Below are positions 2,575 through 33,306 of a stretch of 37,657 bases of DNA, in pieces (the first letter of the stretch is position 1; each line of letters opens with the position of its first letter). The stretch lies in IMG/VR virus record IMGVR_UViG_3300043434_001186, positions 1-37,657 of that record. One strand, 5' to 3'. This DNA comes from a virus. The notes beneath the pieces were generated by a model, which saw only the letters and a program-made list of their open reading frames with translations, searched no databases and was not told the DNA's origin. Both the position numbers and the translations under genes were made by a program.

Positions 2575-2611
2575 GGCCGCCCAAGACAACAACAAGAATT
2601 GCACGACACAT

Positions 2612-2638: not shown

Positions 2639-2648
2639 GGAGATCGCC

Positions 2649-4330: not shown

Positions 4331-4333
4331 ACT

Positions 4334-6201: not shown

Positions 6202-6203
6202 CC

Positions 6204-9067: not shown

Positions 9068-9069
9068 CG

Positions 9070-14463: not shown

Positions 14464-14482
14464 GCTTCCTCCTGATGTCGTG

Positions 14483-15895: not shown

Positions 15896-16812
15896 TATTT
15901 CTTTGTTCTTTCTCGCACTTGGTTCGCCTGTTGCCTGATCCAACTATCGATGTCCGCCCGGGAGAAGCGCCACGTGCCGTCCAGCTTAAAAGCGGGAATC
16001 TTGCCTTCGGCCGCGAGGCGGTAGGCGGTGCGCTTGCCAGCCTTCAGGTGCGCGGCGACCTCGCCCAGTGTCAGGATTTCACCTTCCGGTTCTGCCATCG
16101 TCTCGCCCTTGTCGATGATGAGGTCCCAGTAGGAATGCTTCAGCGCGTCCCGGATCTGGTTATCCCGTTTCAGGGTGTCGATCGAGACGATGGACCGATC
16201 AAACTGGTCAAACACATTGTAGTGGGCGGGTATCTTGTTCCGCCTGCGCCGGATTGCGGCGCTGTCGAGTCGGGAGAGCGGGATCGATAAACGCGTCAAG
16301 AATTCCTTCTGGAAATGAGACAGCATAGCCCGGGTCGTAGCTACGAGGATCCGGTCGCCCCTGCCGCGGAGGACGAGCTCCGAGGTTATCAGGCCCGCTT
16401 CAAGGGTCTTTCCGAGACCGACGTCATCCGCGATCAGGAGACGAACCCGGTCCTGCGCCAGTGCCCGCTCCACAGGTAGACGCTGGAAAGTCAGATCGTC
16501 GATTACGGCCCGACCGAGTGTCAGGGGGCGACGCGTCGTGGTCGGCGTCGCCCTAAACGCCGCCGCGAGGTGCAGCTTGGTGTCGATCAGCCCGGAAGAC
16601 GTGTCTGGGACGAGTTTGACGGCCACCGGGTCAAGAACACGCGCCCCTTTCTCAAGATCCCAGACAAAACGGGCCTCCTTGTCACGCACAAGACCACTCA
16701 GCCCGCGGCAATGAACTTCTCGGAAACCTCGCTTCAATGTTGATGTGCCCATCACTTTCCAAGTGGCAGAGCGCAGCTGAATCACTGAACCGGGCTGCGG
16801 GACGGCATTCAC
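15895..16812 (-). CDS. SNF2-type helicase N-terminus truncated at the DEAH box, joined to an excisionase-like HTH
   Basis: 305 residues in two unrelated parts. Residues 1-233 are the start of a superfamily 2 helicase of the kind seen in defence islands: Walker A ADDVGLGKT (128-136), then RILVATTRAMLSHFQKEF, ending at HSYWDLII, exactly where the DEAH box should come. Residues 239-297 are a helix-turn-helix of the MerR/excisionase family (ILTLGEVAAHLKAGKRTAYRLAAEGKIPAFKLDGTWRFSRADIDSW). An internal ATG at 16098, with a purine-rich GGGCGAG before it, could express the HTH alone (67 residues). The helicase cannot act as a motor as it stands. The whole second half has been lost, so this is a deletion or recombination joint. 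It overlaps the WYL gene by four bases. Confidence 0.75.
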   Translation of the reverse strand: MNAVPQPGSVIQLRSATWKVMGTSTLKRGFREVHCRGLSGLVRDKEARFVWDLEKGARVLDPVAVKLVPDTSSGLIDTKLHLAAAFRATPTTTRRPLTLGRAVIDDLTFQRLPVERALAQDRVRLLIADDVGLGKTLEAGLITSELVLRGRGDRILVATTRAMLSHFQKEFLTRLSIPLSRLDSAAIRRRRNKIPAHYNVFDQFDRSIVSIDTLKRDNQIRDALKHSYWDLIIDKGETMAEPEGEILTLGEVAAHLKAGKRTAYRLAAEGKIPAFKLDGTWRFSRADIDSWIRQQANQVRERTKK

Positions 16813-17675
16813 TTCGCGGCCTCCAATACAACCGATCTATTAAGCAGAACTATCTGCTGATCGCTAGGCCTACGAGCGGAAGGATCCGTGTCAAGCCCAA
16901 GCCGCTTTAGCGCATAGAACAACAAAGCTTTTCGAACGACAATCTCGGCTTTGCCATCGACCATCCCGTAGTCCATCTCAATGGCGCGCCGTTGCGTGTC
17001 CGATAGTTCCGGGTGAGGTCCAAGCTCGAGGGTGATCTCAGCAAGCCAGTCGGTATCGTTTTCAGCCGCAGATGTCGCGTCAGCTTGATCCCCGACCTCG
17101 ACAACCCGCGAGAGCAAAAAGTCTTTGAATACACCGTCGTTCTGACAGAACGCCCGGGCATGCCAACGGAACCCGTCAAACGCCAATGCATGCGGCTCAA
17201 TCCACCGAGCCGTTGGTTCTGGTCTGGACATGGACTGATAGGTAACTTGGAGAGCGTTCTTCTCCCGGATGGCCGAAAGAACCTCCCGCAGCACCTCTGG
17301 ATCCACGCCACGAGCGGGGATAGGCGTGGCTGCGGAGCCGGGGAAGAAGCTGATCCAGCTTTGCCCCTCTGAGATCAGGCCATGCTCAACGGCCTGCAGT
17401 TGCGCGAAATACTCGGCGGCATCAGGCTGAAAATACCTCGGCTTGAAGTTCTTGCCGCGCAGATATGTGCGAAGGCGCTTGTCGTAGGTCAGGTTGCTTT
17501 TTCGGCCTTCGATGTAAGCGGCAAAATCTTTCGACGCCTGCTGAACAGAGATCCCGAAGGCCTCCATCAGATCGCTTCTGTTGATGTGTCCCTGCCAATA
17601 CAACCTGAATTCCATGAACTCGTAGCGCCTCTCGACGCTCCAGTTCGCTCCCTTTTTTCCGACGCGTCGACTCAT
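16809..17675 (-). CDS. WYL-domain transcriptional regulator (BrxR/CapW-like)
   Basis: 288 residues: N-terminal winged helix-turn-helix (recognition region about 31-54, INRSDLMEAFGISVQQASKD), a WYL domain at about 130-200 with the conserved segment GFRWHARAFCQNDGVFKDFLLSRVV, and a C-terminal WCX-like domain. Proteins of this build (BrxR of BREX islands, CapW of CBASS) are dimeric repressors that lift repression during phage infection, probably by sensing a ligand in the WYL pocket. It is the first gene of the - strand defence operon and overlaps the next by ATGA. Its start at 17675 lies only about 15 bases from a TATAAT box, so the transcript is nearly leaderless; an inverted repeat overlaps the -35. 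Confidence 0.85.
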   Translation of the reverse strand: MSRRVGKKGANWSVERRYEFMEFRLYWQGHINRSDLMEAFGISVQQASKDFAAYIEGRKSNLTYDKRLRTYLRGKNFKPRYFQPDAAEYFAQLQAVEHGLISEGQSWISFFPGSAATPIPARGVDPEVLREVLSAIREKNALQVTYQSMSRPEPTARWIEPHALAFDGFRWHARAFCQNDGVFKDFLLSRVVEVGDQADATSAAENDTDWLAEITLELGPHPELSDTQRRAIEMDYGMVDGKAEIVVRKALLFYALKRLGLDTDPSARRPSDQQIVLLNRSVVLEAAK

Positions 17676-17851: not shown

Positions 17852-18454
17852 ATGGGAGATGGCGCATTCTTACTCTTGATGCTGCTCGCAGCGCTTCTTT
17901 TGCTTTGGGTCTTTCTATGGGGCCCGAGAGCAAAGGCAGCCCGCGAGGAGCGCGAGCGACTCGCAGCGGAAGCAAGAGCTCAGCGCGAGGCACAACTGGC
18001 CAAGCTGAAAGCGGAGCGGGAAGAGCTCATGGGAGCTATTCGGTTGCGCGCCCCAGGTTTCATACTGGACGCGCGTCGCGAGTTCGAACGTGAATACCGC
18101 GCCAGAGGGGGCGATGGAATGTTCGGCCACGAGATGTCGCCCTTGGTCTGCTTTGGCTATCGAGTGGGAATAACCAATGGCCGATCGGAAAGTGATCGGC
18201 GGGCGATCCTTGGCTATGCGTTTGCCGCCGACTTTGACGCGACATTGTCTTTTCTCCCCCCCTCGTACCTCGAAGAATGGGGAGCGCCGCTAAGCGGCTC
18301 ACGGTTCAAGCGGATAGTTCAACATCTTCACAACATGGCCGACACCCGGGTCGGACGACGAAACTATGAGGTCGCTGTATCTCATTGGCGGGCTGACATG
18401 TCGTGGTTTCAGGGGGAACAGCGTCCCATCTTGGAGAAATATCGTGATCTTTAA
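17852..18454 (+). CDS. Membrane-anchored coiled-coil protein, unknown function
   Basis: 200 residues. An N-terminal membrane segment (about 6-24, LLLMLLAALLLLWVFLWG) is followed by a highly charged helical region (KAAREERERLAAEARAQREAQLAKLKAEREEL, in parts to about residue 60) that should form a coiled coil, then a globular domain with many aromatic residues. I choose ATG 17852 after GGGGATATC; an in-frame TTG at 17840 is an alternative. It is the first gene of the long + strand operon and overlaps the next by 11 bases. I do not recognise the C-terminal domain. It may anchor the system at the inner membrane. Confidence 0.65.
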   Translation: MGDGAFLLLMLLAALLLLWVFLWGPRAKAAREERERLAAEARAQREAQLAKLKAEREELMGAIRLRAPGFILDARREFEREYRARGGDGMFGHEMSPLVCFGYRVGITNGRSESDRRAILGYAFAADFDATLSFLPPSYLEEWGAPLSGSRFKRIVQHLHNMADTRVGRRNYEVAVSHWRADMSWFQGEQRPILEKYRDL

Positions 18455-19622
18455 GGCCGCCATTTTCTTACTTGGCTTGTCGCCCTCTTGGGGCATGGCG
18501 GAGGAGGCGAAGATATTTGACCACTTCCTTGGGGATCACATTGTGGATTTCCCGGTCGATACTGCAGAAGTGTTGGACAGCGATATCGACGGATACGCCG
18601 GGCAGTCCTTCATTCGGATAATGGCGCCGGAAGCGACCGAGATTGCGCTTACGTTTCAGGCGTCGAGCCGAAAGCTTCACTACATTGAGCACGACTGGAT
18701 TGATCGCTCGAAGACCGCATCGACCGCCCTTGACCTGACCAACACACCTGAGTTTCAGTTTGGTAAAGCCAAGATAAGTGACGTTCAATCGGCACTGGGC
18801 AGCGAAGGGTTTCACTATGCGTGCCGGCGGATTGTGCGGACATCTGATGGTTTTGTAAGTTTTCTTTCGTTCGAGATTCCAAGTCGACCAGAAGCTGTTT
18901 ACACATTTGTATTTGAGCACTCGCCGGACTTAATAGAGCGCGGTTGGGTGGAACCGGTGTCCGAGGACTTTGGCGGGGCTATCCTTGTCGCGACGATTGT
19001 GTTTCGGCCGCATTACGGTGAACAATTCTGGTGCCCCGAACGGGTCGCGTACGACCCCAAGTCAAAGCTGCCGTTACCCCCGGAACAGCAAAGATTCTCT
19101 GATTTTCTTCCCGACGGTCTGGAAGAAGTGGAAACTGATGCTTGGTCTGTGATCACCGAGCCTGTTTTAATGATTGCTAAGAATGGTGCGGTGACTTGGG
19201 GTGACCGCATGCACATCATGCCTGACCCTGTTGATTGCGCGAACGCGGATGTCATGGTGTGGGCGCATACAGTTCAAGATAAGGACCTCTTGAAGTTGAA
19301 GAGGCAGGCGGTTGATGCTGCATTTAACTTGCTGCTTCTTGACGGAGTGCATGCCCCCGTTGAGGCACCTATGACCTTAAGCCATGCGATCTACGCACCA
19401 ATAGACGGTCGCGAATGGCCGCCATTTGCGATCGGTTCCTTCGTCTTCGGGCCGTTTGATTTCAAAACCCTCGCTGAAGCTGAAAATGATCCTGATGTAT
19501 TTGGCTTCTCTCTCGAGTTTGGATCAGATGTCGCTGGTATGCGTGATAACTTCTGGTCGCTCGAAGGCCTGAGTAAGGCGGGGGCTGAAGCTATTCGGCT
19601 TTGTCAGGAGAAAGATAAATGA
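18444..19622 (+). CDS. Secreted protein of unknown function
   Basis: 392 residues starting at GTG 18444 after GGAGA. The N-terminus (MIFKAAIFLLGLSPSWGMA, cut before EEAK) is a good signal peptide; the longer frame from 18366 would hide it. The mature protein is acidic, with few Cys (CRR, WCPE, VDCAN, RLCQ) that could form disulfides, and reads as two beta-rich halves. No known motif was found. It overlaps both the membrane protein in front (11 bases) and the DUF3293 gene behind (ATGA). It is likely periplasmic and made with the membrane protein. Confidence 0.65.
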   Translation: MIFKAAIFLLGLSPSWGMAEEAKIFDHFLGDHIVDFPVDTAEVLDSDIDGYAGQSFIRIMAPEATEIALTFQASSRKLHYIEHDWIDRSKTASTALDLTNTPEFQFGKAKISDVQSALGSEGFHYACRRIVRTSDGFVSFLSFEIPSRPEAVYTFVFEHSPDLIERGWVEPVSEDFGGAILVATIVFRPHYGEQFWCPERVAYDPKSKLPLPPEQQRFSDFLPDGLEEVETDAWSVITEPVLMIAKNGAVTWGDRMHIMPDPVDCANADVMVWAHTVQDKDLLKLKRQAVDAAFNLLLLDGVHAPVEAPMTLSHAIYAPIDGREWPPFAIGSFVFGPFDFKTLAEAENDPDVFGFSLEFGSDVAGMRDNFWSLEGLSKAGAEAIRLCQEKDK

Positions 19623-20038
19623 CCGAAATCCCGAGCGATCTGATTATGGCATACAAAACAACTGATTTTAGGGTGTTGGAGCCACGAGAATTCACGCTAC
19701 GGGTCGGGCAGCACTCCACCGAGTTGCATGAGCTGTACGCCGAACTGGGCGTAACTTGCGCTGGTTATTTGACCGCTTGGAACCCGTTCAGCAAGGAGGC
19801 TTTGGAGCTCGAGAACGAGTACGCGCAGCGGCAGCTGCTTCGGCGACTATCGCTCGAAGGTTTTCCGGCTCTGAACGCCCTCGGCATTAATCCGTCCGGT
19901 GGTTGGCAAGGAGAGGATAGCGTTTTTGTTCCGGGGCTTGATCTTGAGCGCGCGATATCACTGGGAAACGAGTTTGGTCAAAACGCAATCGTTTGGGTGG
20001 GGCACGATGCCATCCCTCAATTGGTCCTGCTGAGGTGA
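19619..20038 (+). CDS. DUF3293 family protein
   Basis: 139 residues. MAYKTTDFRVLEPREFTLRV, the segment GYLTAWNPFSKEALELEN, and IVWVGHDAIPQLVLL follow the DUF3293 pattern (an early Y-x-x-T/S-x-F/Y, then T-A-x-NP-x-S, then N). The function of the family is unknown; it is a small cytosolic protein often found as a stand-alone gene. The ATG overlaps the stop of the secreted-protein gene and a good ribosome binding site (GAGGTGAG) for the next gene covers its own stop. It appears to be part of this operon by spacing only. Confidence 0.7.
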   Translation: MTEIPSDLIMAYKTTDFRVLEPREFTLRVGQHSTELHELYAELGVTCAGYLTAWNPFSKEALELENEYAQRQLLRRLSLEGFPALNALGINPSGGWQGEDSVFVPGLDLERAISLGNEFGQNAIVWVGHDAIPQLVLLR

Positions 20039-20044
20039 GAAATC

Positions 20045-21502
20045 ATGGCGCCAGTACCTAGCAATGAGAACATTGAAAATGGTGAAGCCGCAATTGTCCG
20101 TGAAGACTATGCTCAAGCATTAGCATTCTTCGCTGCCGCGGCCGAGGAAGGATGCGTGCAGGCTCTAACCTACCTTGCATCAATGTACGAGGATGGCCTC
20201 GGTGTTGAACCCGATCAGGAAAAAGTTCTGTCTCTCTTGCACCAAGCAGCCAGTGCAGGAGATGCAGAGGCCTGCGGTAGACTGGGTTATTTGCACGCGG
20301 TCGGCAAATTCGTGGAGCCAAATCCGGGTGCGGCTGTCGAATTCCATAAAATGGCCGCGAAACAGGGGCTGGCAAATTCCCAGTGCGACCTTGGGCGCCA
20401 CTATGCTCACGGCATCGGAGTTCAGCAAAATTTGGCGGAAGCCCAGCGGTGGTATGAACTTGCAGCCGAAGCCGGGCACGATTTGGCCCAGCACAGTTTG
20501 GCAGCCATTTTGTTAAACCTCCATAATCCGCATCGAGATTCAGCGGGTGGAATGAAATGGTTGGAAGCTGCTGCGTCTGGGGGCAACGTTAAGGCTCAGT
20601 ATGAAGCTGGAAGTTTGAAGTTGGGAACAACATTTCCTGAACTGCTGGATTTTCAAGGAGCCGAGTTTTGGTTGACTACTGCTGCAAAAAACGGATCCAT
20701 CGACGCTCTTTATCAAATTGCGAACTGCTTCGAGCACGGGGTGGGCGTCGAGCAAAACTATGAGGCCGCGGCCCATAATTATTTCGAGGCCTGCAAACAG
20801 GGGAACATCGAGGCAGCATTCGCCCTCGGAACCTTGTTTGAGAACGGGCTTGGAGTTGCTCAGGATTATGGGGCGGCTTTGAAGTTTTACGGCCTCGCGG
20901 CAGAAAAATTTCATGTATCTGCTCTGTTCAACATGGGCAGATTCTATCAGTTTGGCTGGGGAGTGCCGGTTGATTATGCGATTGCACATCGCCACTTTCT
21001 TTGGGCAGCTGAGCGTGGGCATTTGATGTGTCAGTTCCTTGTCGGGCAAGCTCTTCTGCGCGGCGTGGAAGATACGCCGGAAGACTTCGAGGAAGGCGTG
21101 GCTTGGATGCGGCGAGCAGCGATGGCAGGATTTGCCGCGGCCCAAGCGGAACTCGGGTTTTGTTACTTAGCGGGCCAGGGCGTGGACCAGGATTACGAAG
21201 AGGCGCTAAGATGGTCGCTTGCAGCTGCTGAGCAAGGCCACGCTTGGGCACAGTATCGTGCTGCTAGCATACTTATTCGTTACGGTTGTCGCGGTGAGAC
21301 GGAATTCGTGGAAGCGGTTAAATGGCTCGTAAGATCCTTTAACCAGGCACAAGAAGAAGGTGAGCGGCGCCAAGACTTAATCAGAGCAGACTTCAATTAT
21401 CTCCAATCTGCTTTGCCCGCGGATGTTTTCGAATCTGCGTGTAGTGAGGCACTCACTTCAAGGGCTCAAGGTCTGGCGACCTCGCTTGGTGGTCACGCGT
21501 GA
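20045..21502 (+). CDS. Sel1-repeat (TPR-like) protein
   Basis: 485 residues made almost entirely of Sel1-like repeats of about 36 residues, with the hallmark patterns A...LG..Y..G.GV.QDY..A..W...AAE.G (for example LGRHYAHGIGVQQNLAEAQRW and LGFCYLAGQGVDQDYEEALRW), at least ten units. There is no signal peptide, so it should be cytosolic, unlike many secreted Sel1 proteins. Sel1 arrays form superhelical scaffolds for protein-protein contacts and often act as adaptors in signalling or stress systems. It ends with GTGA overlapping the next gene. It could assemble the neighbouring enzymes. A second Sel1-repeat gene is cut by the right end of the window. Confidence 0.85.
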   Translation: MAPVPSNENIENGEAAIVREDYAQALAFFAAAAEEGCVQALTYLASMYEDGLGVEPDQEKVLSLLHQAASAGDAEACGRLGYLHAVGKFVEPNPGAAVEFHKMAAKQGLANSQCDLGRHYAHGIGVQQNLAEAQRWYELAAEAGHDLAQHSLAAILLNLHNPHRDSAGGMKWLEAAASGGNVKAQYEAGSLKLGTTFPELLDFQGAEFWLTTAAKNGSIDALYQIANCFEHGVGVEQNYEAAAHNYFEACKQGNIEAAFALGTLFENGLGVAQDYGAALKFYGLAAEKFHVSALFNMGRFYQFGWGVPVDYAIAHRHFLWAAERGHLMCQFLVGQALLRGVEDTPEDFEEGVAWMRRAAMAGFAAAQAELGFCYLAGQGVDQDYEEALRWSLAAAEQGHAWAQYRAASILIRYGCRGETEFVEAVKWLVRSFNQAQEEGERRQDLIRADFNYLQSALPADVFESACSEALTSRAQGLATSLGGHA

Positions 21503-22215
21503 AAATGGTCACTGCTAAAGCTGGCAATCTGATTATTCATGTCCCCCACGCATCGACGTTCATCCCAGAGGATGTCTGGTCAGAATTTCTCGTGCCGCGA
21601 GCTCAAGTTGAGGCTGAAGCCGCCGCTTCTGCCGATCTCTACACAGATGAAATGGCACGCCAAGCATGGCCGCAAGCGAAGATCATTCAGGCACAAGTGT
21701 CCCGCATCGTCGTTGATGTCGAGCGTTATGATGACGACAGCAAGGAAGAGATGGCCGCGGTCGGCCGAGGCGCCCTCTACACTCACGATCATAACCAGAT
21801 AGAAATCCGAAAGAGCCTGTCCGGATCCCGTCGGGAAGAGCTGTTGACGCGCTACCATCGGCCCCACTGGCAGGTTCTACGAGCTCATGCTGCTGGTGCA
21901 ATACTGGTCGACCTTCACACCTATCCTGCCGAGCCATGGATCATAGAGCGTCATGCGCAGGGGCCTCGTCCAGAGATCGACATTGGCTTCACTGAGGCGC
22001 TGACACCTACCGTGTGGGTTTACGGATTAACACGGCACTTCGAGCGGCACGGCTTTATGGTTGGCCACAATACGCCATATACCGGCGTTATCGATGCTGG
22101 CGCTCGGGCCGCCGTAATGATCGAAATTCGCCGCGATGTTGTTGGTCATCCGGGGGCAGATCCGAAGTGGCTTCGCCTTATCGAGGCTTTACGAACTATG
22201 CCGCTAGAGGTCTGA
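21499..22215 (+). CDS. N-formylglutamate amidohydrolase-like zinc hydrolase
   Basis: 238 residues. The N-terminal NLIIHVPHAST (His14 and His17 region), DVERYDDD, LVDLHTYPAEPW and VMIEIRRDV segments follow the N-formylglutamate amidohydrolase family, a zinc peptidase-like fold whose classic members free glutamate in histidine breakdown (HutG). No hut genes are near, so the natural substrate here is open; other N-acyl or peptide-type amides are possible. Start GTG 21499 overlaps the stop of the Sel1 gene; ATG 21505 is an alternative two codons in. It is directly followed by the ADP-ribosylglycohydrolase with no gap. Confidence 0.75.
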   Translation: MKMVTAKAGNLIIHVPHASTFIPEDVWSEFLVPRAQVEAEAAASADLYTDEMARQAWPQAKIIQAQVSRIVVDVERYDDDSKEEMAAVGRGALYTHDHNQIEIRKSLSGSRREELLTRYHRPHWQVLRAHAAGAILVDLHTYPAEPWIIERHAQGPRPEIDIGFTEALTPTVWVYGLTRHFERHGFMVGHNTPYTGVIDAGARAAVMIEIRRDVVGHPGADPKWLRLIEALRTMPLEV

Positions 22216-23163
22216 ATGATGCAAAATCCGCTTAATGAATTTGGTATAGCTGATCGCGCCTTGGGTGCAATCGTTGGGCTGGCTGTCGGGGATGCCCTTG
22301 GCGCCCCGGTGGAGTTCTGCCGGCGCGACACGTTCGAGCCAGTTACTGGAATGCGTGCTGGCGGGTATTTCAAGCTTCCTGCCGGTGCGTGGACTGATGA
22401 CACGGCGATGGCCCTTTGCCTGGCTGAAAGTTTGATCGAACACCCCGAACTTGATCCGAAGGATCTCCTGGATCGCTTCTGCTTGTGGGCTGAGAAAGGC
22501 GCCAACACGAGCACCGGTGTTTGCGTTGGCATCGGACAAAACACGCTTCGAGTCTTGGGCAACTATCATCGTAAAGGCGAGCTTTTCGCCCCCGAAACGC
22601 GCCAAAAATCAGATGGCAACGGGGCGGCCATGCGCTTGGCGCCCGTCGCTGTGCGTCACTGGCGCAACCCTTCTGAGGCACAGCGGATTGCTGAGGCTCA
22701 GAGCCGTACCACGCATTATTCGGACATTTCGGCAGCTGCGTGCGAGGCGCTAGCTGTAATCATGTCCGCCCAGATCAATGGGGTCGGCTGGGAGACGGCT
22801 TCTAAGCCAACCCCCGCAGGGCATTGGCCTGACGCAATAAAAACAATTTCAGTTGAGGACTGGAGCGCGCGTGATCGTGAAAGCATCAGTTCGACTGGCT
22901 TCGTCGTGCACACGCTTGAGGCCGCACTTTGGGCTGTCGACACGACGAGCAGCTTTGCTGCCGCTGTTCTGAAGGCGGTAAACTTGGGAGACGACGCCGA
23001 CAGTGTTGGCGCTGTTGCGGGGCAGTTGGCTGGCGCGCGGTACGGTCTGAGCGCCATCCCGCAAAGTTGGCTGGACGCGTTGATCCATCAGGCTGAAATT
23101 GAACGGATCGGTCGAATTCTTTTCCATGCTGGCTATGCTACCGGGGGATGCGATGCCGTTTGA
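22216..23163 (+). CDS. ADP-ribosylglycohydrolase (DraG/ARH family)
   Basis: 315 residues with the family's metal-binding motifs: GLAVGDALGAPVEF near the start, TDDTAM (60-64) and GDDADSVGAVAGQ (258-270), which hold the binuclear Mg/Mn site. Such enzymes remove ADP-ribose from Arg side chains (DraG), from Ser, or from other ADP-ribosylated targets including DNA and RNA. The gene has no partner ADP-ribosyltransferase in the window, so it might protect the host from a phage or competitor transferase, or work with a remote one. The start immediately follows the previous stop, and the HD-domain gene overlaps its end by 11 bases. Confidence 0.85.
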   Translation: MMQNPLNEFGIADRALGAIVGLAVGDALGAPVEFCRRDTFEPVTGMRAGGYFKLPAGAWTDDTAMALCLAESLIEHPELDPKDLLDRFCLWAEKGANTSTGVCVGIGQNTLRVLGNYHRKGELFAPETRQKSDGNGAAMRLAPVAVRHWRNPSEAQRIAEAQSRTTHYSDISAAACEALAVIMSAQINGVGWETASKPTPAGHWPDAIKTISVEDWSARDRESISSTGFVVHTLEAALWAVDTTSSFAAAVLKAVNLGDDADSVGAVAGQLAGARYGLSAIPQSWLDALIHQAEIERIGRILFHAGYATGGCDAV

Positions 23164-24298
23164 GCCCTCAGAGACGGTTTCGCGGAAGTTCTTTGATTAT
23201 TTGGTGAATTCTCACACGCTTGGCCATGATGGGTTTCATGGAAGAGATCACTGGCTGCGCGTCCTTCACAACGCGCGAGCGATTGCGACAGAGACAGGGG
23301 CGAATCTGCGTGTCATGGAACTGTTTGCAGTTCTCCATGACAGTCAAAGGCAAAACGAAAATCATGACCCTGATCACGGCCACCGAGCGGCAGCCTATGC
23401 GGCAGTGCTTAGAGGCAAATGGTTTGATTTGGCCGATGATGAGATGGAGCTTCTGATCGAAGCCTGTCGCTATCATTCAGACGGCATTGTTGAGGCACAT
23501 CCGACCGTGCAGGCTTGCTGGGATTCCGACCGCTTAGATCTCGGCCGCGTGGGTGTGCGGCCCGATCCACGATTTTTGTGCACCAGCTTTGCAAAGAGAC
23601 CAGAGGTCATTGAGGCAGCCTATCTTCGATCCACTCAGGGGTTGTTGATGCATGCTTCAGATTTAAACCCGTCAGCACTTCAACTCACATTGCAAAAGCT
23701 TCAAAACGATTGGGGAGAGAATTTCCGCGAGTATACGGTCTTGAGCGGGCGTGCCGAGGTGATCAGCGTAGATCCTGCAAACCTCACACGCGTTATTCGG
23801 AGCCACCTGTACCTATTTCCGGATAGCGACAGCTTTGACTTTGCTCGCACTATCCCAACCTCGTTCGTGACGGAAGAATGCGTTTGGACCCTAACGTGGT
23901 CTGATCCAGACGAATTTGATGATCCGAGTGGCTTTACCGAAAGCGATTACGACACCGAAAACCTAGAGATCGATGGGGCGGGTTGGGATGATCCTGATCT
24001 GCCTGACGAAGTGTTTGAGAGAGCGATCGCCCATATCGATTGGTGGGGGACAGGGGAGTGGTTGGACGACTGGGAGCAAAGCAGCGCCCCCAAATTTAGG
24101 GAAGCTCCAGCGAGGCTTCGGCCATATCTGCAGAATGCACTCGCGCTCTACCGCCGCCAAACGCTTGGTCGCAAAGGTTACTGGTTATATCTGGCAGCGC
24201 ACCCAAAGTTTCTTTGGCAGCGGATCAGCCGGCAGAGCATCTGGCGTACCATCACGCCAGAGCAGTTAGGGTCCTTTTCATTTCATAGGAGGTCTTGA
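23153..24298 (+). CDS. HD-domain phosphohydrolase with a novel C-terminal half
   Basis: 381 residues. Residues about 25-180 are an HD domain: HGRDHWLRVLHNA (His29, His33), AVLHDSQR (His62-Asp63), DPDHGHRAA. HD enzymes hydrolyse phosphate esters of nucleotides or cyclic nucleotides. The C-terminal 200 residues are not recognised; they contain a very acidic stretch (DPDEFDDPSGFTESDYD, then WDDPDLPDE) and a basic, aromatic end. ATG 23153 follows GGGGGATGC and overlaps the DraG gene; the frame opens at 23099 but without a site. Coupling to the ADP-ribosylglycohydrolase and the metallophosphoesterase suggests that all three process nucleotide-derived groups. Confidence 0.75.
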   Translation: MPFEPSETVSRKFFDYLVNSHTLGHDGFHGRDHWLRVLHNARAIATETGANLRVMELFAVLHDSQRQNENHDPDHGHRAAAYAAVLRGKWFDLADDEMELLIEACRYHSDGIVEAHPTVQACWDSDRLDLGRVGVRPDPRFLCTSFAKRPEVIEAAYLRSTQGLLMHASDLNPSALQLTLQKLQNDWGENFREYTVLSGRAEVISVDPANLTRVIRSHLYLFPDSDSFDFARTIPTSFVTEECVWTLTWSDPDEFDDPSGFTESDYDTENLEIDGAGWDDPDLPDEVFERAIAHIDWWGTGEWLDDWEQSSAPKFREAPARLRPYLQNALALYRRQTLGRKGYWLYLAAHPKFLWQRISRQSIWRTITPEQLGSFSFHRRS

Positions 24299-24299
24299 G

Positions 24300-24578
24300 A
24301 TGCCTGCTCAGGATTTTGTTGAGCTGACAGCCTACTGGGGCAACGATGATGCTGATAGCACCATCAAGATCAGCGCTAAAAAGTGGGAACAAATCAAAGC
24401 CGGGGCACAGTTTCAGAAAACGGCAAAGTCATATTATGAAGGACAAAAGTACGACATTACCTGGTCGTTTTCTAATGGAGTCGTTTCAATAGATGGTGAG
24501 GATGGCATGCAATGTGTCGTCGACCTTCCAGTTGGGGAATTGATCCTGCATCAGCTCAAGCCTGGGGGGCCGACATGA
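24300..24578 (+). CDS. Small protein of unknown function
   Basis: 92 residues, not recognised. It has a very strong ribosome binding site (AGGAGG at 24287-24292, 7 bases before the ATG), so it is likely made in quantity compared with its coupled neighbours. It is mixed alpha/beta with several aromatic residues, one Cys, no signal peptide and no membrane segment. Its end overlaps the metallophosphoesterase start (ATGA). A partner or inhibitor protein of the phosphatase would fit size and position, but nothing in the sequence proves it. Confidence 0.65.
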   Translation: MPAQDFVELTAYWGNDDADSTIKISAKKWEQIKAGAQFQKTAKSYYEGQKYDITWSFSNGVVSIDGEDGMQCVVDLPVGELILHQLKPGGPT

Positions 24579-25465
24579 CGCGTCATACAGTGATCCCGGA
24601 CATCCACGCAGATTTCGAACGGCTGCAGCAGTCTCTGCAGCATGCTTCAGCCAGTGGCCAAGTTGCCTTCCTCGGTGATTTTATCGACGCAGGCAAAACT
24701 GTAGAAAAGCCTGCCGATTTCCAGGTGCTGGAGCTCGCAAGAACTCTCATTTCAGAGGGGAAGGCGGTGGGCGTGATGGGCAACCACGAGCTAAACGCCA
24801 TTCTGTACCATGCGAAAGGCAACAACGGCGCCCCGATGCGTCAACACAGCCCCAAGAACCAAAAGCAGCACCAGAGTTTTATTGATGAGTTTGGTGTCGG
24901 CACAGGGAGGGCGGTCGAGTGGACAGATTGGTTCTTAGAAGCGCTGCCCCTATGGGCAGAGCTGGACGGGCTCAGGCTAGTTCACGCTTGCTGGTCAGAT
25001 GCCAAGATTGACGAAGTCCGGTGCCGGCGACCTGATGGGTATCTGAAGCGCGAGGACCTTCAAGAGATTGCAGATGAGAGCACAGCGTTTGGTCAAGCAG
25101 TCAAAGCCTTGGTGACGGGCCCCGAGGTTGAACTTCCCCCGGGTTATTCGTTCCACGATTTTCACGGCAATAAACGCAAAGAGGTCCGTCTGGCATGGTG
25201 GAACGCTGACGCGGTAACGTGGCCAGAAGCCACCTTGTCAGTCCCTGATCCGCTCGAACTGCCTCAGGATGCCATGCCGGCTGACGCAAAGTCAGAGATC
25301 TATCAGTCTGACGCATCACCCGTCCTGGTTGGACATTACAAGATGAAGGGCGTGCCGCGGATTGAGCATCAAAAGGCCTCCAGCATCGACTATCCGGGAG
25401 CTCCATGTGTTTATCACTGGTCAGGTGGCAGTCGTCTGAATGCAACCGACCTCGTCACGCTCTAA
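24575..25465 (+). CDS. Metallophosphoesterase (PPP/PrpE-ApaH-like)
   Basis: 296 residues with the calcineurin-like signature: PDIHAD (Asp9, His11), GDFIDAG (Asp35), GNHE (Asn70-His71), then LVHACWSD and VLVGHYKM supplying the last His ligands. This order is that of PPP-type phosphatases and diadenosine tetraphosphatases (PrpE, ApaH). Possible substrates are phosphoproteins, Ap4A-type nucleotides, or 5' RNA/DNA ends. The ATG at 24575 overlaps the preceding gene; the frame extends to 24512 without support. It is one of several phosphate- or nucleotide-hydrolysing enzymes in this operon. Confidence 0.8.
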   Translation: MTRHTVIPDIHADFERLQQSLQHASASGQVAFLGDFIDAGKTVEKPADFQVLELARTLISEGKAVGVMGNHELNAILYHAKGNNGAPMRQHSPKNQKQHQSFIDEFGVGTGRAVEWTDWFLEALPLWAELDGLRLVHACWSDAKIDEVRCRRPDGYLKREDLQEIADESTAFGQAVKALVTGPEVELPPGYSFHDFHGNKRKEVRLAWWNADAVTWPEATLSVPDPLELPQDAMPADAKSEIYQSDASPVLVGHYKMKGVPRIEHQKASSIDYPGAPCVYHWSGGSRLNATDLVTL

Positions 25466-25482
25466 CGCTAGGAGGGGAAACA

Positions 25483-25896
25483 GTGCCAATTGATGAAATC
25501 AGCTTTGCACCACCCGATGATCTCACGTTTCAAAGTCTTGTTTTACGTGCCACACGAGATCAGATTCCGGCCTTCGGCGCGGTCATTCGGACCGAAGATG
25601 TGCGTCTCACCAGAGCTTTTGAAAATCACAGACCTGAAAATATGCCCGGTGGAGCCGAAGTGGTTCGGAAGATGTTTTCGGATTGGCAAGCCGGCAAGCC
25701 AGCACAGCCTTGGCTGTATGCAAAGGGCGATGACTACATCGTGGCAGATGACTACTTTTGGTTGGCTCTCGTTGAAAAAGGGGGGCCGCCAACCTTTTCG
25801 GCGCAAATACTTGGTGAGCCTCTCAGCGCAGGTCTCATTCAGAAGTTCGGTCCATTGGGGCCGGATTTCGTGAAGCGTTCTTTTGGATTTGCGTGA
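25483..25896 (+). CDS. Protein of unknown function (GTG start)
   Basis: 137 residues, not recognised. The start is set by AGGAGGGG (around 25470-25477) just before GTG 25483; the frame opens at 25405 inside the phosphatase gene but lacks a site. It is mixed alpha/beta with a notable aromatic/acidic run (WLYAKGDDYIVADDYFWLALVEKG). There is no signal peptide, membrane segment or Cys. It lies 17 bases after the phosphoesterase and 48 before exonuclease I, so it is part of the operon. Confidence 0.65.
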   Translation: MPIDEISFAPPDDLTFQSLVLRATRDQIPAFGAVIRTEDVRLTRAFENHRPENMPGGAEVVRKMFSDWQAGKPAQPWLYAKGDDYIVADDYFWLALVEKGGPPTFSAQILGEPLSAGLIQKFGPLGPDFVKRSFGFA

Positions 25897-25944
25897 CATG
25901 ATTGAACGTCCGCATTTTTCGAGTGGTCGAAGTAGGTTGGTCTG

Positions 25945-27324
25945 ATGGATTTTGTTTTTTACGACCTAGAGACCACGGGGATCTCGGCTGCGTATGACCA
26001 GCCGCTGCAATTCGCAGCGATCCTGATGGATGAACATTTCGTCGAGAAGCAGCGTGTGAATCTTCGCTGCCGTTTGGCTCCCCATATTTTGCCATCGCCG
26101 CAGGCTTTGGTCGTTACAGGGGTCACGCCAGAACAACTGACGGACCCAAGCCTGCCATCACTTTTTGAATTCTCTCAGAAGGTCGTTGCACTGACAGAGC
26201 AGTGGGCGCCGGCGATTTGGGTTGGCTACAACACAATGAAATTCGACGAGGAGGTGCTGCGGCAAACCTTCTATCAGAACCTATCGCCGAGCATTTACGC
26301 CACTCAGTTCAACGGCAATACGCGCTTCGACATTATGACGGCTGTTTATGCAGCCTACGTGCGAGACCCCGGACTTCTGGCCTGGCCCCAAGATGACGCT
26401 GGTCGGCAGAGCTTCAAGCTCGACCGAATAGCCCCCGCCAACGGGTTCAATGGCCACAACGCTCATGACGCACTTGGAGATGTGGAAGCCACGATCCACA
26501 TCGCCCGCCGGATAGCTGACAGAAACCCAAGCCTCTGGGCGGAACTCTTGTCCAATGCCCATAAAACGGAAGTTCAAGCCAAACTCGAAACCTTTCAGCC
26601 GATGGAGTTGGTCCTTCGCTTTGGAGGGGGCGAACCCCGTGCCTACACGGGGGTCTTTTGCGGCTACACCCAAGGGAACAATACGCGGGCAGCATTCTTC
26701 GACCTCAATGCTGCTGATCCTTCAGAATTTTCAAACGCATCCGACGAGGCGCTCTTTGCGGCGGTTGATGCGTCTCCCAAAGTCATCCGTGGCGTCTCGA
26801 CCAACAAGGCACCGGCGCTCTTGAGCATGGCTGAACCTAGTCCCGAACATCAACGGCGCGCCGCAGTTATCGCAGACGCACCAGAGTTTCGACGCAGGGT
26901 TGGAGAGGCGATGGCTGCGCGCTTTGTTGATGATCCTGAAGCGCCACCGAAGCCGGTTGAGGAACTGATTTACGGCGAGTTTTATTCCAACGCTGACAAG
27001 AACCTGCTCAGCGAGTTTCAGCACGCTGACTGGCCTCGTCGCCAGGAGATCGTGTCCAGCTTGTCAGATCGTCGCCTTCGTCAGCTGGGAAATCGCTTGG
27101 TCGCGTTTCATAGACCTGAACTTTTGACCGCCGAAGAGACCGCACGGTTCAGGGACTATCTGCGATCAAAGTGGTTGCCATCGGCGGAAGAAAAGGCCCA
27201 CTGGATGACCCTTGATCGAGCCGCTGAAGAAATTGCCAACATCCAAGAGCAATACGGGGCAGATGACGCGGTCATAGGTGCCATTCGAGAATTTTTCGCG
27301 GACCGCCGGAGGGTACTTGATTGA
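25945..27324 (+). CDS. sbcB: Exodeoxyribonuclease I (DEDDh 3'-5' exonuclease)
   Basis: 459 residues. The N-terminal exonuclease domain has all DEDDh residues: Asp7 and Glu9 (FYDLETTG), Asp101 (NTMKFDEEV), His174 and Asp179 (NAHDALGDVEAT). The middle SH3-like and C-terminal helical domains match ExoI of Gammaproteobacteria, and the length is close to the E. coli protein (475). ExoI degrades single-stranded DNA 3' to 5' and processes recombination and replication ends. ATG 25945 is the only sensible start, 48 bases after the previous gene. It is the last gene before an intrinsic terminator. ExoI in an alphaproteobacterial accessory operon suggests acquisition; in defence systems such nucleases can act on phage or retron DNA. 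Confidence 0.85.
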   Translation: MDFVFYDLETTGISAAYDQPLQFAAILMDEHFVEKQRVNLRCRLAPHILPSPQALVVTGVTPEQLTDPSLPSLFEFSQKVVALTEQWAPAIWVGYNTMKFDEEVLRQTFYQNLSPSIYATQFNGNTRFDIMTAVYAAYVRDPGLLAWPQDDAGRQSFKLDRIAPANGFNGHNAHDALGDVEATIHIARRIADRNPSLWAELLSNAHKTEVQAKLETFQPMELVLRFGGGEPRAYTGVFCGYTQGNNTRAAFFDLNAADPSEFSNASDEALFAAVDASPKVIRGVSTNKAPALLSMAEPSPEHQRRAAVIADAPEFRRRVGEAMAARFVDDPEAPPKPVEELIYGEFYSNADKNLLSEFQHADWPRRQEIVSSLSDRRLRQLGNRLVAFHRPELLTAEETARFRDYLRSKWLPSAEEKAHWMTLDRAAEEIANIQEQYGADDAVIGAIREFFADRRRVLD

Positions 27325-27463
27325 CGAGGGCGTCGGCTTTTGATGAAATTAAAAGATGCATCAAGAGCTGGGCTGACGCCCGCGCCAACCTGCCAAGACC
27401 GGCAAGGTGGTTTCCCGAGAGGGGATGCGGCCCTAGGCAACTAAAGGTCGTCAGCGTCGTCAG
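27325..27463 (+). other. Possible structured transcript 3' of sbcB
   Basis: This stretch has no gene but several local hairpins: CCAACCTGCC/GGCAAGGTGG at about 27380-27411 (8 of 10 pairs), CCC-GAGA-GGG, and a direct tandem repeat GTCGTCAGC GTCGTCAGC (27447-27464) that runs into the terminator. It may be only the 3' UTR of the operon, or a small RNA ended by the terminator at 27464-27492. I do not recognise it as a known family. Confidence 0.3.
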
Positions 27464-27492
27464 CCCTCCTCGGAAACGAAGGAGGGTTTTTT
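27464..27492 (+). terminator. Intrinsic terminator after exonuclease I
   Basis: CCCTCCT (27464-27470), loop CGGAAACGA, AGGAGGG (27480-27486), then TTTTTT (27487-27492). Seven GC-rich pairs followed by six T make a strong Rho-independent terminator. It separates the eleven-gene operon from the MetK/SNF2 unit. Confidence 0.85.
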
Positions 27493-27540
27493 GTTTTCGA
27501 CCTAACCAGATCAGGCCTCAACTCCTGACCTACCGTAACA

Positions 27541-27605
27541 CATTCGGGCATTTGAACATCAGCTTGTGCGCCCTGCCAGATGGCTAAAGCACTAAAGAGA
27601 GGAAA
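27541..27605 (+). promoter_or_regulatory. Candidate SAM-II riboswitch upstream of metK
   Basis: A short H-type pseudoknot can be drawn in the SAM-II style. P1 is GGGC/GCCC (27546-27549 with 27570-27573), closing a loop that starts ATTTG (27550-27554) and contains GCTT (27562-27565). The 3' strand GCTAAAGC (27583-27590) can pair back to the loop. It lies just before the AGAGG ribosome binding site (27598-27602), as in SAM-II elements that shut translation when S-adenosylmethionine binds. ATTTG and GCTAAAG are the conserved marks as I recall them. P1 is short and the loop pairing is imperfect, so this is a candidate only. Confidence 0.45.
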
Positions 27606-27609
27606 GACC

Positions 27610-28884
27610 ATGAACCAACTTTACCCATTTTCGTCTGAGAGCGTTTCGGCTGGGCACCCAGACAAAGTCTGTGACCAGATTTCAGACGCGATCCTAAGCG
27701 AGTGCCTCCTGCAAGATCCGGCCTCACGTGTGGCGATCGAAGCCTCGATCAAAGATCACACACTTTTTCTCTTCGGGGAAATCACCTCCCGAGCGCGTAT
27801 CAATGCCCCAGAAATCGCCAAAGATATCCTGGTCCGCATCGGTTACGACGATCCTGCTTGGGGTTTGTCGATTGAACGCCTGCAAGTCATCGAGGCGATC
27901 TCCAGGCAATCCGCCGAGATCGCATTCGGCGTCGACGGCGCCGAAACCGGCGCAGGCGATCAAGGCATCATGTTTGGATATGCCTGCAACGAAACGCCAG
28001 AGCTCATGCCTCTTCCGATTATGCTCGCTCATCAGCTTATGCGCGCGCATCACAGTCTGCGGCGGTCTGAAGTCGGCTCGGGACTAGGTCCTGACGCAAA
28101 AGCTCAGGTGACGGTGCTCTACGAAAACGGCCTGCCCCGAGAGGTCACGGACGTTGTCTTGTCAACGCAGCATCGCCATAGCCTTGGCCTCGATGCTTTA
28201 CGCGCACTGGTTACCGAGGCCCTCATTAAGCCAACGCTGGGAGACCTTTGGCGGCCGACTGTAAGGCTGCACATCAACCCCGCAGGGACGTTTCACATGG
28301 GTGGCCCTGCCGCCGACGCTGGCTTAACGGGGCGAAAGATTATCGTGGATACCTACGGCGGATCTGCCCGCCATGGGGGAGGTGCATTCTCGGGAAAAGA
28401 CGCAACCAAAGTAGATCGGTCGGCAGCCTACGCCGCGCGCCAACTTGCCAAGGATGTGGTCAGCCGGGGATGGGCGGACAGCTGCGAAGTACAGGTGGCT
28501 TATGCCATCGGTGAAGCAAGGCCTGTCAGTTTTGCGTTCTTGCCCACCGGCGATGCGAAAGGTCATGAAATTGCCAAGCAATATCAGCTCGAAGGTATTG
28601 ACCTGTATGGCCTCTTCGAACCGGCGCGCATCATCGAGCGTCTGCAACTGCGCCTTCCAAGTTATCTTCGGACGGCCGCATTTGGTCATTTTGGCCGTCA
28701 TGATGTGAGTTGGGAGAAGCCGTTTTATCGGTCGCAGCAGCGAGACCATGTCAGGGAGCTCGCCATCCGCGAACAGGTTTGCGGAATGGGTTTTGTCTCA
28801 GGCTTGGCACTGGACCAGGTGAAAGCGAAGCGCATTGAAGACTACGCGGAGGCCCGCGCGGAGTTCATGGCCAGCCACCTTTAA
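27610..28884 (+). CDS. metK: S-adenosylmethionine synthetase (MetK-like)
   Basis: 424 residues with MetK landmarks: SESVSAGHPDKVCDQISD with catalytic His16, GAGDQGIMFGYACNE, RPDAK-type segment GPDAKAQV, GRKIIVDTYGGSARHGGGAFSGKD, KVDRSAAYAARQLAK. It joins methionine and ATP to form S-adenosylmethionine. The family's SEGHPDK is SAGHPDK here, and the protein has about 40 more C-terminal residues than the E. coli enzyme (after GHFGRHDVSWEKPF). Its sequence is closer to the general bacterial form than to the alphaproteobacterial type I know (SEGHPDKVCDRISD), so it is probably an acquired second copy. Start ATG 27610 follows GAGAGGAAAG; an in-frame ATG at 27580 lies inside the candidate riboswitch. 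It is 16 bases before the SNF2 gene. Confidence 0.9.
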   Translation: MNQLYPFSSESVSAGHPDKVCDQISDAILSECLLQDPASRVAIEASIKDHTLFLFGEITSRARINAPEIAKDILVRIGYDDPAWGLSIERLQVIEAISRQSAEIAFGVDGAETGAGDQGIMFGYACNETPELMPLPIMLAHQLMRAHHSLRRSEVGSGLGPDAKAQVTVLYENGLPREVTDVVLSTQHRHSLGLDALRALVTEALIKPTLGDLWRPTVRLHINPAGTFHMGGPAADAGLTGRKIIVDTYGGSARHGGGAFSGKDATKVDRSAAYAARQLAKDVVSRGWADSCEVQVAYAIGEARPVSFAFLPTGDAKGHEIAKQYQLEGIDLYGLFEPARIIERLQLRLPSYLRTAAFGHFGRHDVSWEKPFYRSQQRDHVRELAIREQVCGMGFVSGLALDQVKAKRIEDYAEARAEFMASHL

Positions 28885-28900
28885 AGACAGGGAGATGAAG

Positions 28901-30577
28901 ATGTCCGCTTTTGTGAAGTCTCTCGCTCAGTCTGCTGCTCAGATTGATAAGGTCGCTTCTGGTAGCCTCTATCCGCACCAATCGGATGGAGTGGCCTTCT
29001 TGCTCTCGAAACGGCGCGTCATCTTAGCGGATGACATGGGCCTTGGGAAAACGCGTCAAGCGATTGTTGCCATGGAAGTCGGCGCCCCTATGGGGAAGAT
29101 CCTGGTCGTGTGTCCCGCGTCGCTAAAGTTGAACTGGAAACGGGAAATCAGGCTCGTTGACCCCGGGGCGTCAATTGAGGTTCTTGGTGTTGACCAAGAT
29201 GCACCCGAGGATGCCCGCTGGATTATCGTGAACTATGATATTCTCGGTAAACATGCCGGGCGCATGCATGGCATAAACTGGTCCGGTGTGATCCTTGATG
29301 AAGCGCATTTCATCAGAAACGCTAGTCAGCGCACCAACCACTGCCTGAAATTGCTCGGTGTTCAAGCTGAAGCTCGAGCTCCAGTCCTTGGTCCGGACTT
29401 CGTATTCCTTTTGACCGGCACGCCGATGACGAACAGGCCGAAAGACCTGTTCAACTTGTTGCGCTGCGTTGGCCACCCGTCAGCAAGATCGTTTTTGTCT
29501 TATGCCAAACGGTACTGTGACGCCTATCGCAACGATTACGGCTGGGTAACGACGGGTGCTTCGAATCTCGATGAGCTGAACCTATTGCTGAAGGAAGTCT
29601 CTATCCGACGGAAAAAGGAAGACGTGCTTGATCTACCACCCAAGATCCGCAGCTGGGTGCCGGTGGATATATCGGGCAGTGCCGCGGCTTTTAGCGCAGT
29701 GGAATCCTTCGTCACTTGGTATTCGGGAACTGACCCGTCAAAGCCCAATGACACGGAGTTTTTGGCTCGCCTGACCAAGGTGAGAACTGCGTTGCACAAG
29801 GCGAAGCAAAAGGCCGTTGAGGAACGCATTCGGGACGTGGTGGCAAGCGGCGAGAAGGTTGTTGTCTTTACATGCTTCAGCGAAGGCATTGAACGACACA
29901 AGGCCAAGCTGGGGGATGCTGCGATCACGATCACTGGTTCTGATTCAGCCGAAAAACGCATGGCTGCAGTTGACCGGTTCCAACAAGACGAAACAGTCAA
30001 AGTCGCCCTTTGCAATATCATTGCAGGTGGCGTCGGGATTACCTTGACCGCTGGCACGCATGTGATCTTTCAAGATTTGGACTGGGCCCCTGCAAACCAT
30101 GCCCAGGCAGAAGACCGCTGCTACCGCTTGGGGCAAACCCGGCAGGTGACTGTCGAGTACTTCACAGCCGACGGCACTCTGGACGGCTATATCGCTACCC
30201 TGCTGGATCAAAAAATGAAGCTTATCGCAGCTGTGGAAGCCGAGGAACTTCCAGACATAAGCATTTTGCGTGAAATCCAAGACGGTCTGCGCCGCCTTGC
30301 ACCCGCACTGATTGAGGAGGTCCGGGCAGCGCGTGCGACTGGCAATGTGGCACAACGGATTGAGAAACTGGCAGCGGCCCAACCGCGTGCCAACGCAGAT
30401 AGCAGTCCTCTTGGAGAAACAGGGCAGTGGGAGTTCACAAGCACAAGGGATCCATCCGCGCGCTACTTGGTCACCTTTGGGCGTGCAGGTCATTTGGAAT
30501 GTACGTGTCAGGGTTTCGTGTACCGCGGCAATTGCAAACATGTGCAGGACGTGCGTGGGAAGATGTTTGATGAATAA
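28901..30577 (+). CDS. SNF2-family helicase with C-terminal SWIM zinc finger
   Basis: 558 residues. Motif I DDMGLGKT (44-51), DEAH (133-136), LTGTPMTNRP (motif III), and the second RecA lobe with VFTCFSEGIERHK, GVGITLTAGTHVIFQDLDW and QAEDRCYRLGQ (motifs V/VI) make a complete SMARCAL1/HepA-type translocase. The end carries a SWIM finger: Cys534, Cys536, Cys545, His547 (CTCQGFVYRGNCKHV), a DNA- or protein-binding element. Such enzymes remodel DNA or protein-DNA complexes, for instance annealing or fork processing. ATG 28901 follows GGGAG; an ATG at 28895 is too close to it. Its coupling to a SAM synthetase is unusual and suggests a SAM-consuming partner elsewhere. Confidence 0.85.
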   Translation: MSAFVKSLAQSAAQIDKVASGSLYPHQSDGVAFLLSKRRVILADDMGLGKTRQAIVAMEVGAPMGKILVVCPASLKLNWKREIRLVDPGASIEVLGVDQDAPEDARWIIVNYDILGKHAGRMHGINWSGVILDEAHFIRNASQRTNHCLKLLGVQAEARAPVLGPDFVFLLTGTPMTNRPKDLFNLLRCVGHPSARSFLSYAKRYCDAYRNDYGWVTTGASNLDELNLLLKEVSIRRKKEDVLDLPPKIRSWVPVDISGSAAAFSAVESFVTWYSGTDPSKPNDTEFLARLTKVRTALHKAKQKAVEERIRDVVASGEKVVVFTCFSEGIERHKAKLGDAAITITGSDSAEKRMAAVDRFQQDETVKVALCNIIAGGVGITLTAGTHVIFQDLDWAPANHAQAEDRCYRLGQTRQVTVEYFTADGTLDGYIATLLDQKMKLIAAVEAEELPDISILREIQDGLRRLAPALIEEVRAARATGNVAQRIEKLAAAQPRANADSSPLGETGQWEFTSTRDPSARYLVTFGRAGHLECTCQGFVYRGNCKHVQDVRGKMFDE

Positions 30578-30785: not shown

Positions 30786-31130
30786 GTGACCCTTTCGGAA
30801 CTTGCCAATTGCTTAGGCATACCTGCACGCCAAATCAGGTTCATGATCGCTGAAGGGATTTTGCCTGCAGCTGCACGAACTGGGCGATCTGCGGATGCTT
30901 ATGATGAGACGCATGTCGCCAAGGGGCAAAGGTACTTGGCGTTGCATAGGATGGGGATGAAGCCCGGATCAATCAAGGTTCTGATGGCCTTCGATGATGC
31001 GGTTCCAATCCTTCAGGAGAATGGGATTGAGTTGCGTGTTGATCCGCAGCTTACCCCCGACGAGTTGGATGTCGACGCGATCATGGCAGCAGTCCAGGGC
31101 GCACTTCGAGCATATACAAACAGAGGATAG
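30786..31130 (+). CDS. MerR-family transcriptional regulator
   Basis: 114 residues beginning at GTG 30786 after GTGAGGTG. The N-terminal MerR-type HTH is clear (LSELANCLGIPARQIRFMIAEGILPAAARTG, then YDETHVAKGQRYLALHRMGM), followed by a helical segment and a C-terminal tail without Cys or other metal ligands. It lacks a long effector domain, so it may sense through a partner or simply bind DNA. It stands behind a dense set of inverted repeats and three bases before the VWA gene, and so is likely to control that unit. Confidence 0.8.
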   Translation: MTLSELANCLGIPARQIRFMIAEGILPAAARTGRSADAYDETHVAKGQRYLALHRMGMKPGSIKVLMAFDDAVPILQENGIELRVDPQLTPDELDVDAIMAAVQGALRAYTNRG

Positions 31131-31133
31131 CAG

Positions 31134-33239: not shown

Positions 33240-33306
33240 CCCGTTCGGCCAAGACGTAGAAAACAAAGAACCGAAAGTTCGCGACGTGGATCTGTGGAGA
33301 CAAGCA

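Follow-up and report, generated by a model that had tools for sequence, protein, structure and literature searches.

Phage S-adenosylmethionine (SAM) lyases, such as T3 gp0.3 and Svi3-3 (Pfam PF23780), and the SAM-AMP lyase of CorA-associated type III CRISPR systems are reported to have two structurally conserved residues in common, i.e. a Glu (E71 in the SAM-AMP lyase, E69 in the SAM lyase) and a Gln (Q108 and Q104, respectively; PMC12255297), and the E68Q exchange in T3 SAM lyase abolishes rescue in vivo (PMC7877911). The closest described counterparts of the other elements considered here are the Tri1-type ADP-ribosylhydrolases, the SbcB nucleases associated with reverse transcriptases (RTs) in defence-associated RT (DRT) systems, where ExoI, as far as tested, neutralises the DRT9 products and is not the effector (PMC12483538), and the tandem SAM riboswitches, for which a 2022 survey gives the pairs SAM-II/SAM-V, SAM-II/SAM-I-IV and SAM-I-IV/SAM-II, SAM-I-IV/SAM-V being absent (PMC9481103). 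Here we compare with them a block of eleven genes (g01 to g11, 17852-27324) on the IMG/VR virus record IMGVR_UViG_3300043434_001186, a 37.7-kb viral contig analysed over its whole length of 37,657 nucleotides (the window). We describe the computed gene layout and families of the block, the partial conservation of its core, the SAM-lyase-type fold and residue placement of its DUF3293 protein (g03), and the riboswitches before the adjoining metK gene. Our tentative explanation is that the core of the block is a module that clears SAM or SAM/nucleotide conjugates, to which an ADP-ribosylglycohydrolase (ARH), a phosphoesterase and ExoI were added later.

DUF3293 resembles SAM lyases

The AlphaFold2 (AF2) model of DUF3293, built from an alignment of 16 sequences, had a pLDDT of 94.8, and its four best matches in a VIA-align comparison with the Protein Data Bank (PDB) were all SAM lyases, i.e. 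T3 (Z 8.7 and 8.4) and phage SAM lyase entries (Z 6.5 and 6.1), followed near Z 5 by further SAM lyases and SAM-AMP lyases. Within a viral structure library, the model was paired with phage proteins annotated as SAM hydrolases at a probability of 1.00. N66, E99 and Q121 are invariant in 19 DUF3293 proteins. E99 opens the strand that follows a T-loop-like segment and Q121 stands in the loop between helix 2 and strand 4, i.e. the B-loop position, so that both occupy the topological positions of E71/E69 and Q108/Q104, a correspondence based on alignment and secondary structure rather than on superposition of coordinates. In a profile alignment, the three residues fall on N27, E68 and Q94, which are invariant in six phage SAM lyases.

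DUF3293 thus has in common with the phage SAM lyases the predicted PII-like/ferredoxin fold, the catalytic Glu, the loop Gln and the invariant Asn, but differs from them in its low identity (around 15 %), in around 31 extra N-terminal residues and in its occurrence mostly in bacterial chromosomes and islands. With the CorA-associated SAM-AMP lyase it shares the fold class and both signature residues (E71 and Q108), although this match is weaker (Z 5) and neither Cas10 nor CorA was recognised in the window. Enzymes of this superfamily are homotrimers whose active site lies between the subunits, and they cleave SAM or SAM-AMP. A DUF3293 profile compared with the sequences of solved structures gave no credible match, the SAM lyases being revealed by fold comparison only. 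We class DUF3293 as SAM-lyase-like and do not assign it to PF23780; the link to SAM lyases by predicted fold and catalytic residues is new here.

A small core recurs in other islands

An earlier note on this DNA had suggested that the eleven genes could form one system. In a conserved-neighbourhood check, however, the genes were largely scattered in relatives, and no complete copy of the block was found elsewhere in 394 family-level genomes (three separate queries), in 385 class-level genomes (a concatenated query of the unknown proteins), or in 398 phylum-level genomes (a profile of HDC, the conserved C-terminal domain of the HD phosphohydrolase g07), viral contigs or plasmids.

What recurs is smaller. 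Tateyamaria pelophila (L002) carries DUF3293, the amidohydrolase of the N-formylglutamate amidohydrolase (FGase) family, HDC and the 92-aa protein in a row at 67-71 % identity, beside transposase-like and integrase-like open reading frames (ORFs), HDC lacking the HD domain there. The DUF3293-FGase pair, present in two Rhodobacterales loci (in Tateyamaria together with HDC and the 92-aa protein), lies at 59/70 % identity just 3' of a prophage lysis gene at the end of an IMG/VR prophage contig (L130). In a distant alphaproteobacterial island (L114), an HD_4 protein, HDC as a stand-alone gene, FGase and DUF3293 share a stretch of 5 kb that adjoins type III restriction-like genes and a tyrosine-integrase-like ORF. 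Since HDC is fused to one HD family in the window and adjoins another in L114, it looks like an HD partner. The L114 island is itself bounded by an integrase (L114:1395-19825), with small unknown proteins clustering around HDC, FGase and DUF3293. Partial associations were also seen, i.e. DUF3293 next to a stand-alone HD gene (L028), an ARH gene near DUF3293 in Polaromonas, and the relative of the window's SNF2 helicase directly beside a DUF3293 gene with an integrase-like ORF near (L115:1774-4110). Restriction or DISARM-type genes adjoin the core loci; DUF3293 also occurs in ordinary chromosomal contexts.

The remaining genes behave differently. The phosphoesterase was found in 37 of the 394 family genomes, none of its neighbours recurring among around 20 loci examined, and the relatives of phosphoesterase, ExoI and ARH that were examined were mostly in unrelated contexts. 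ExoI relatives on plasmids sit 3' of helix-turn-helix (HTH) and ImmA genes, the HD N-terminal domain of g07 stands alone in unrelated contexts, g10 has no relatives in plasmids, and g02 has only weak matches (26-28 %) in Rhizobium and Agrobacterium plasmids. The eleven genes are therefore not co-inherited as a unit but form a patchwork, in which only the small core recurs.

This scatter is also the strength of the main rival explanation, namely that the block is accretion only, i.e. unrelated island cargo under a common promoter in which DUF3293-FGase(-HDC) alone is a functional unit. Set against it are the tight translational coupling along the block, the ARH near DUF3293 in Polaromonas and, in loci of Paracoccus and Tateyamaria, a divergent ARH 5' of the phosphoesterase. 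We regard this explanation as possible, if somewhat doubtful.

Two SAM riboswitches precede metK

The SAM connection, i.e. the fold of DUF3293 and the riboswitches of metK, had been overlooked by the earlier note, which placed a strong terminator at the end of the operon. This terminator is not the operon's own: the hairpin and U-run lie 137 nt past the ExoI stop, directly 3' of a SAM-I/IV riboswitch and within the metK leader, although the hairpin may also stop read-through from ExoI. It is followed by a SAM-V riboswitch with every core motif present, and both riboswitches are leader elements of metK. The natural reading is a two-level control of metK by SAM, the first switch being predicted to act on termination and the second on translation.

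Known tandem SAM riboswitches likewise have a terminator with the first switch and the second over the Shine-Dalgarno sequence, both sensing SAM, but the first aptamer here is SAM-I/IV and its pairing with SAM-V is outside the published list. SAM-V was confirmed in four of 13 viral contigs chosen by the SAM-V core pattern, none of the four being in tandem with another SAM switch; a scan of 17 Tateyamaria relatives gave no SAM-V match but is uninformative, as the control genomes were equally without one. The SAM-I/IV-SAM-V pair would extend the known tandem riboswitches by one combination.

Other enzymes of the block

Catalytic motifs are present in every enzyme of the block. The HxPHAS, VDxH and EIRRD motifs of FGase are retained in a distant relative, and a score of 30 bits against the HutG N-formylglutamate deformylase equivalog (cut-off 278.75) leaves g05 in the broad FGase family only. 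The ARH g06 has both metal-binding motifs, WTDDT (residue 59) and GDDAD (residue 258), in a full-length ARH/DraG-type domain. Its closest solved relative is the Tri1-type ADP-ribosylhydrolase, with homology over the full length and both motifs in common, but g06 stays below the cut-off of the Tri1 arginine ADP-ribosylhydrolase equivalog (290 versus 490 bits) and no ADP-ribosyltransferase toxin was recognised near it. Matches of the HD domain of g07 are weak yet consistent (PRK10119; PDB HD hydrolase 2pq7, E 6.5e-6), while the AF2 model of HDC (pLDDT 50.6) was too poor for a structure search. The phosphoesterase g09 shows the motifs PDIHAD, GDFID, GNHE, HACW and GHY; a role as ApaH, i.e. symmetrical Ap4A hydrolase, or in cap processing was rejected for it, as it scored 19 bits against an equivalog cut-off of 176.

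ExoI best matched the RTasSbcB model of PADLOC (550.7 bits over the whole model), with 178 bits for Escherichia coli ExoI and 310-350 for plasmid HTH-ImmA-SbcB. By score it falls in the RT-associated SbcB clade of DRT systems, from which it differs in being surrounded by other enzymes, and no RT was recognised among the window ORFs scanned. Beyond RTasSbcB, a PADLOC scan of block genes gave only a weak PtuA match, to the Sel1 repeats. On Pseudosulfitobacter and Rhizobium plasmids, HTH-ImmA/IrrE-ExoI triads (L044:12571-14892 and L046:9178-11398) adjoin nucleotidyltransferase/SLATT or ThiF/multiubiquitin genes and are possible defence modules in their own right.

Organization and genomic setting

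The operon-like layout described in the earlier note was borne out, with all eleven genes on the plus strand and successive genes overlapping by at most 11 bp or lying at most 48 bp apart (Table 1). A purine-rich Shine-Dalgarno sequence precedes most starts and translational coupling is tight across the block, and a single transcript is predicted as plausible from the spacing. Most of its family assignments stood as well, i.e. Sel1, amidohydrolase, ARH, phosphoesterase and ExoI by Pfam and HD by distant matches, and the 139-aa g03, to which the note gave no name, is DUF3293, whereas the envelope pair (g01 and g02) matches no family; the HD C-terminal domain and the 92-aa and 137-aa proteins were likewise without a Pfam or NCBIfam match above cut-off.

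Table 1. Features of the window in and around the eleven-gene block
Feature	Position	Strand	Match or remark
DUF2357/PD-(D/E)XK nuclease and AAA_5 partner, McrBC-like, adjoining C5 cytosine methyltransferase	11233-15943	-	PADLOC PDC-M26
WYL gene and DrmD-like helicase	15895-17675	-	helicase cut after ~221 aa, fused to HTH domain
g01, 200 aa, predicted membrane-anchored	17852..18454	+	N-terminal hydrophobic segment; no family; membrane call from sequence only
g02, predicted secreted-type	18444..19622	+	signal-peptide-like N-terminus judged from the residues alone; refined GTG start; no family
g03, DUF3293, 139 aa, predicted SAM-lyase-fold enzyme	19619..20038	+	PF11697 2e-21
g04, Sel1-repeat protein, 8 repeats	20045..21502	+	PF08238 2e-62
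g05, FGase (N-formylglutamate amidohydrolase family)	21499..22215	+	PF05013 5e-30
g06, ARH	22216..23163	+	PF03747 3e-72; NCBIfam Tri1-like; PDB 6dre 2e-64
g07, HD phosphohydrolase domain fused to HDC	23153..24298	+	PDB 2pq7; refined ATG start
g08, 92-aa protein	24300..24578	+	kept after HDC in Tateyamaria (69 %)
g09, PPP-type metallophosphoesterase	24575..25465	+	PF00149 1.6e-8; refined ATG start
g10, 137-aa protein	25483..25896	+	no relatives found; refined GTG start
g11, ExoI/SbcB-type DEDDh exonuclease	25945..27324	+	PF00929 (RNase_T) and PF08411 (Exonuc_X-T_C)
SAM-I/IV riboswitch	27353..27454	+	Rfam RF01725 69.7 bits, cut-off 41.1
Intrinsic terminator hairpin, then U-run	27462..27488	+	-17.6 kcal/mol; likely expression platform of SAM-I/IV switch
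SAM-V riboswitch	27537..27605	+	Rfam RF01826 42.4 bits, gathering cut-off 41; overlaps metK Shine-Dalgarno
metK, S-adenosylmethionine synthetase, next transcription unit	27610..28884	+	ATG 27610; three S-AdoMet_synt Pfam domains
SNF2 helicase	28895..30577	+	70 % identical relative adjoins DUF3293 gene in L115
MerR-type regulator, then VIT-VWA protein	30786-33239		
Penicillin-binding transpeptidase-domain protein	33106-34419		after VIT-VWA protein
IS3-type transposase, two ORFs	36029-37116	-	near right end
Sel1 gene, cut	37303-37656		beyond IS3-type transposase

Bases 1-11000 of the contig are prophage tail genes with a GC content of around 63 %, and 11-37 kb are an island of around 55 %; a 2OG-Fe(II) (2-oxoglutarate) oxygenase and a radical SAM protein (8074-11003) form prophage cargo that separates the tail genes from the island. 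The neighbours of the block on the minus strand are the DUF2357/PD-(D/E)XK and AAA pair, the 5-methylcytosine (5mC) methyltransferase, and the WYL gene with the truncated DrmD-like helicase. The DNA of the latter shares 84 % identity with DISARM-type loci that are intact on plasmids of Haematobacter and Martelella (L132 and L133), and the two genes are, judged by sequence likeness, what is left of such a system. Control of the eleven-gene block by a WYL-dependent promoter was considered and rejected, as WYL belongs to that separate operon and no clear operator was found. Attachment repeats of at least 13 bp were absent from the island flanks, save one chance-like pair. The block lies in a defence-rich, low-GC genomic island of bacterial type, which supports the earlier note, where it was placed next to a defence island.

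Possible function and alternatives

According to the explanation that we tentatively favour, the block would be an operon carried as cargo by a mobile genomic island and grown by accretion around a core of DUF3293, the 92-aa protein, the FGase-family amidohydrolase and the HD hydrolase together with HDC as its partner domain. The biochemical steps that we infer would begin with the DUF3293 lyase, which would cut at the sulphonium of SAM, or of a conjugate of SAM, and release homoserine lactone together with methylthioadenosine or the corresponding conjugate. Nucleotide adducts with amide, phosphate or ADP-ribose linkages would be disposed of by the amidohydrolase, the two phosphoesterases (HD and PPP) and the ADP-ribosylhydrolase. 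Localisation of these enzymes would fall to the Sel1 protein and the envelope pair, and removal of single-stranded DNA ends to ExoI. As SAM falls, metK would be derepressed and SAM restored. Islands that carry restriction and defence genes may retain such a module either for tuning SAM-dependent restriction or for turning off a nucleotide signal.

Several points weigh against this explanation. Compared by sequence profile only, DUF3293 and the SAM lyases match weakly (hhalign E 0.04, a score reached by two of 200 column shuffles), the SAM-lyase Pfam model PF23780 matched none of three DUF3293 proteins at E up to 1 (T3 gp0.3, 143 bits), and a Foldseek search of the model against the PDB gave nothing below E 0.17. 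The Z of 8.7 barely exceeds the level typical of a common fold arrangement, and for Tyr58 of Svi3-3 DUF3293 offers no more than a candidate counterpart, W96. Furthermore, core loci are few, i.e. four besides the window, one of them a decayed remnant; metK lies outside the operon and is possibly unrelated; and a joint function of the eleven genes is deduced solely from their being adjacent.

The same SAM-lyase-like fold would also suit an anti-restriction or prophage cargo, in which DUF3293 depletes SAM against SAM-dependent restriction, as T3 SAM lyase does, and the operon aids the establishment of a mobile element. The position of DUF3293-FGase behind the prophage lysis gene in L130 and the restriction or DISARM-type genes beside core loci are consistent with this, but 50,697 phage records hold no DUF3293 relative at E 0.01, the family occurs in ordinary chromosomal contexts too, and the remaining enzymes have no clear anti-restriction role, which makes this explanation unlikely. 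The anti-phage or stress system of the earlier note, in which ExoI would be the DNA effector and the targets would be nucleic acids that are capped or ADP-ribosylated, is improbable despite the adjoining McrBC-like, 5mC methyltransferase and DISARM-like genes and the RT-associated SbcB score of ExoI, as no RT was recognised among the window ORFs scanned, the operon genes scanned gave no further PADLOC match save that to Sel1, ExoI, where tested, neutralises DRT9 products and is not the effector, the gene set is not kept as a unit, and there is no evidence for nucleic acids as target of ARH or phosphoesterase.

Going back to the SAM-clearing module, a more far-reaching version, which we hold to be improbable, is that the SAM-lyase superfamily has in DUF3293 a widespread cellular branch and, at the same time, that DUF3293-FGase-HD/HDC is a Cas10-independent system neutralising or silencing a SAM-derived (SAM-AMP-like) signal or adduct in defence islands, with the riboswitch-controlled metK as SAM backup.

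Significance

In line with the earlier note, no paper was found that describes this gene set, and none on DUF3293 or on ARH with FGase. As an eleven-gene defence system, the block is much weaker than first proposed. Should DUF3293 prove to be a SAM lyase, a simple growth assay that is already published would make this Pfam family, whose function is unknown, testable. The destruction of SAM, described so far for phages and a single branch of CRISPR, would then be an activity found more broadly in bacteria and linked to islands and to restriction systems.

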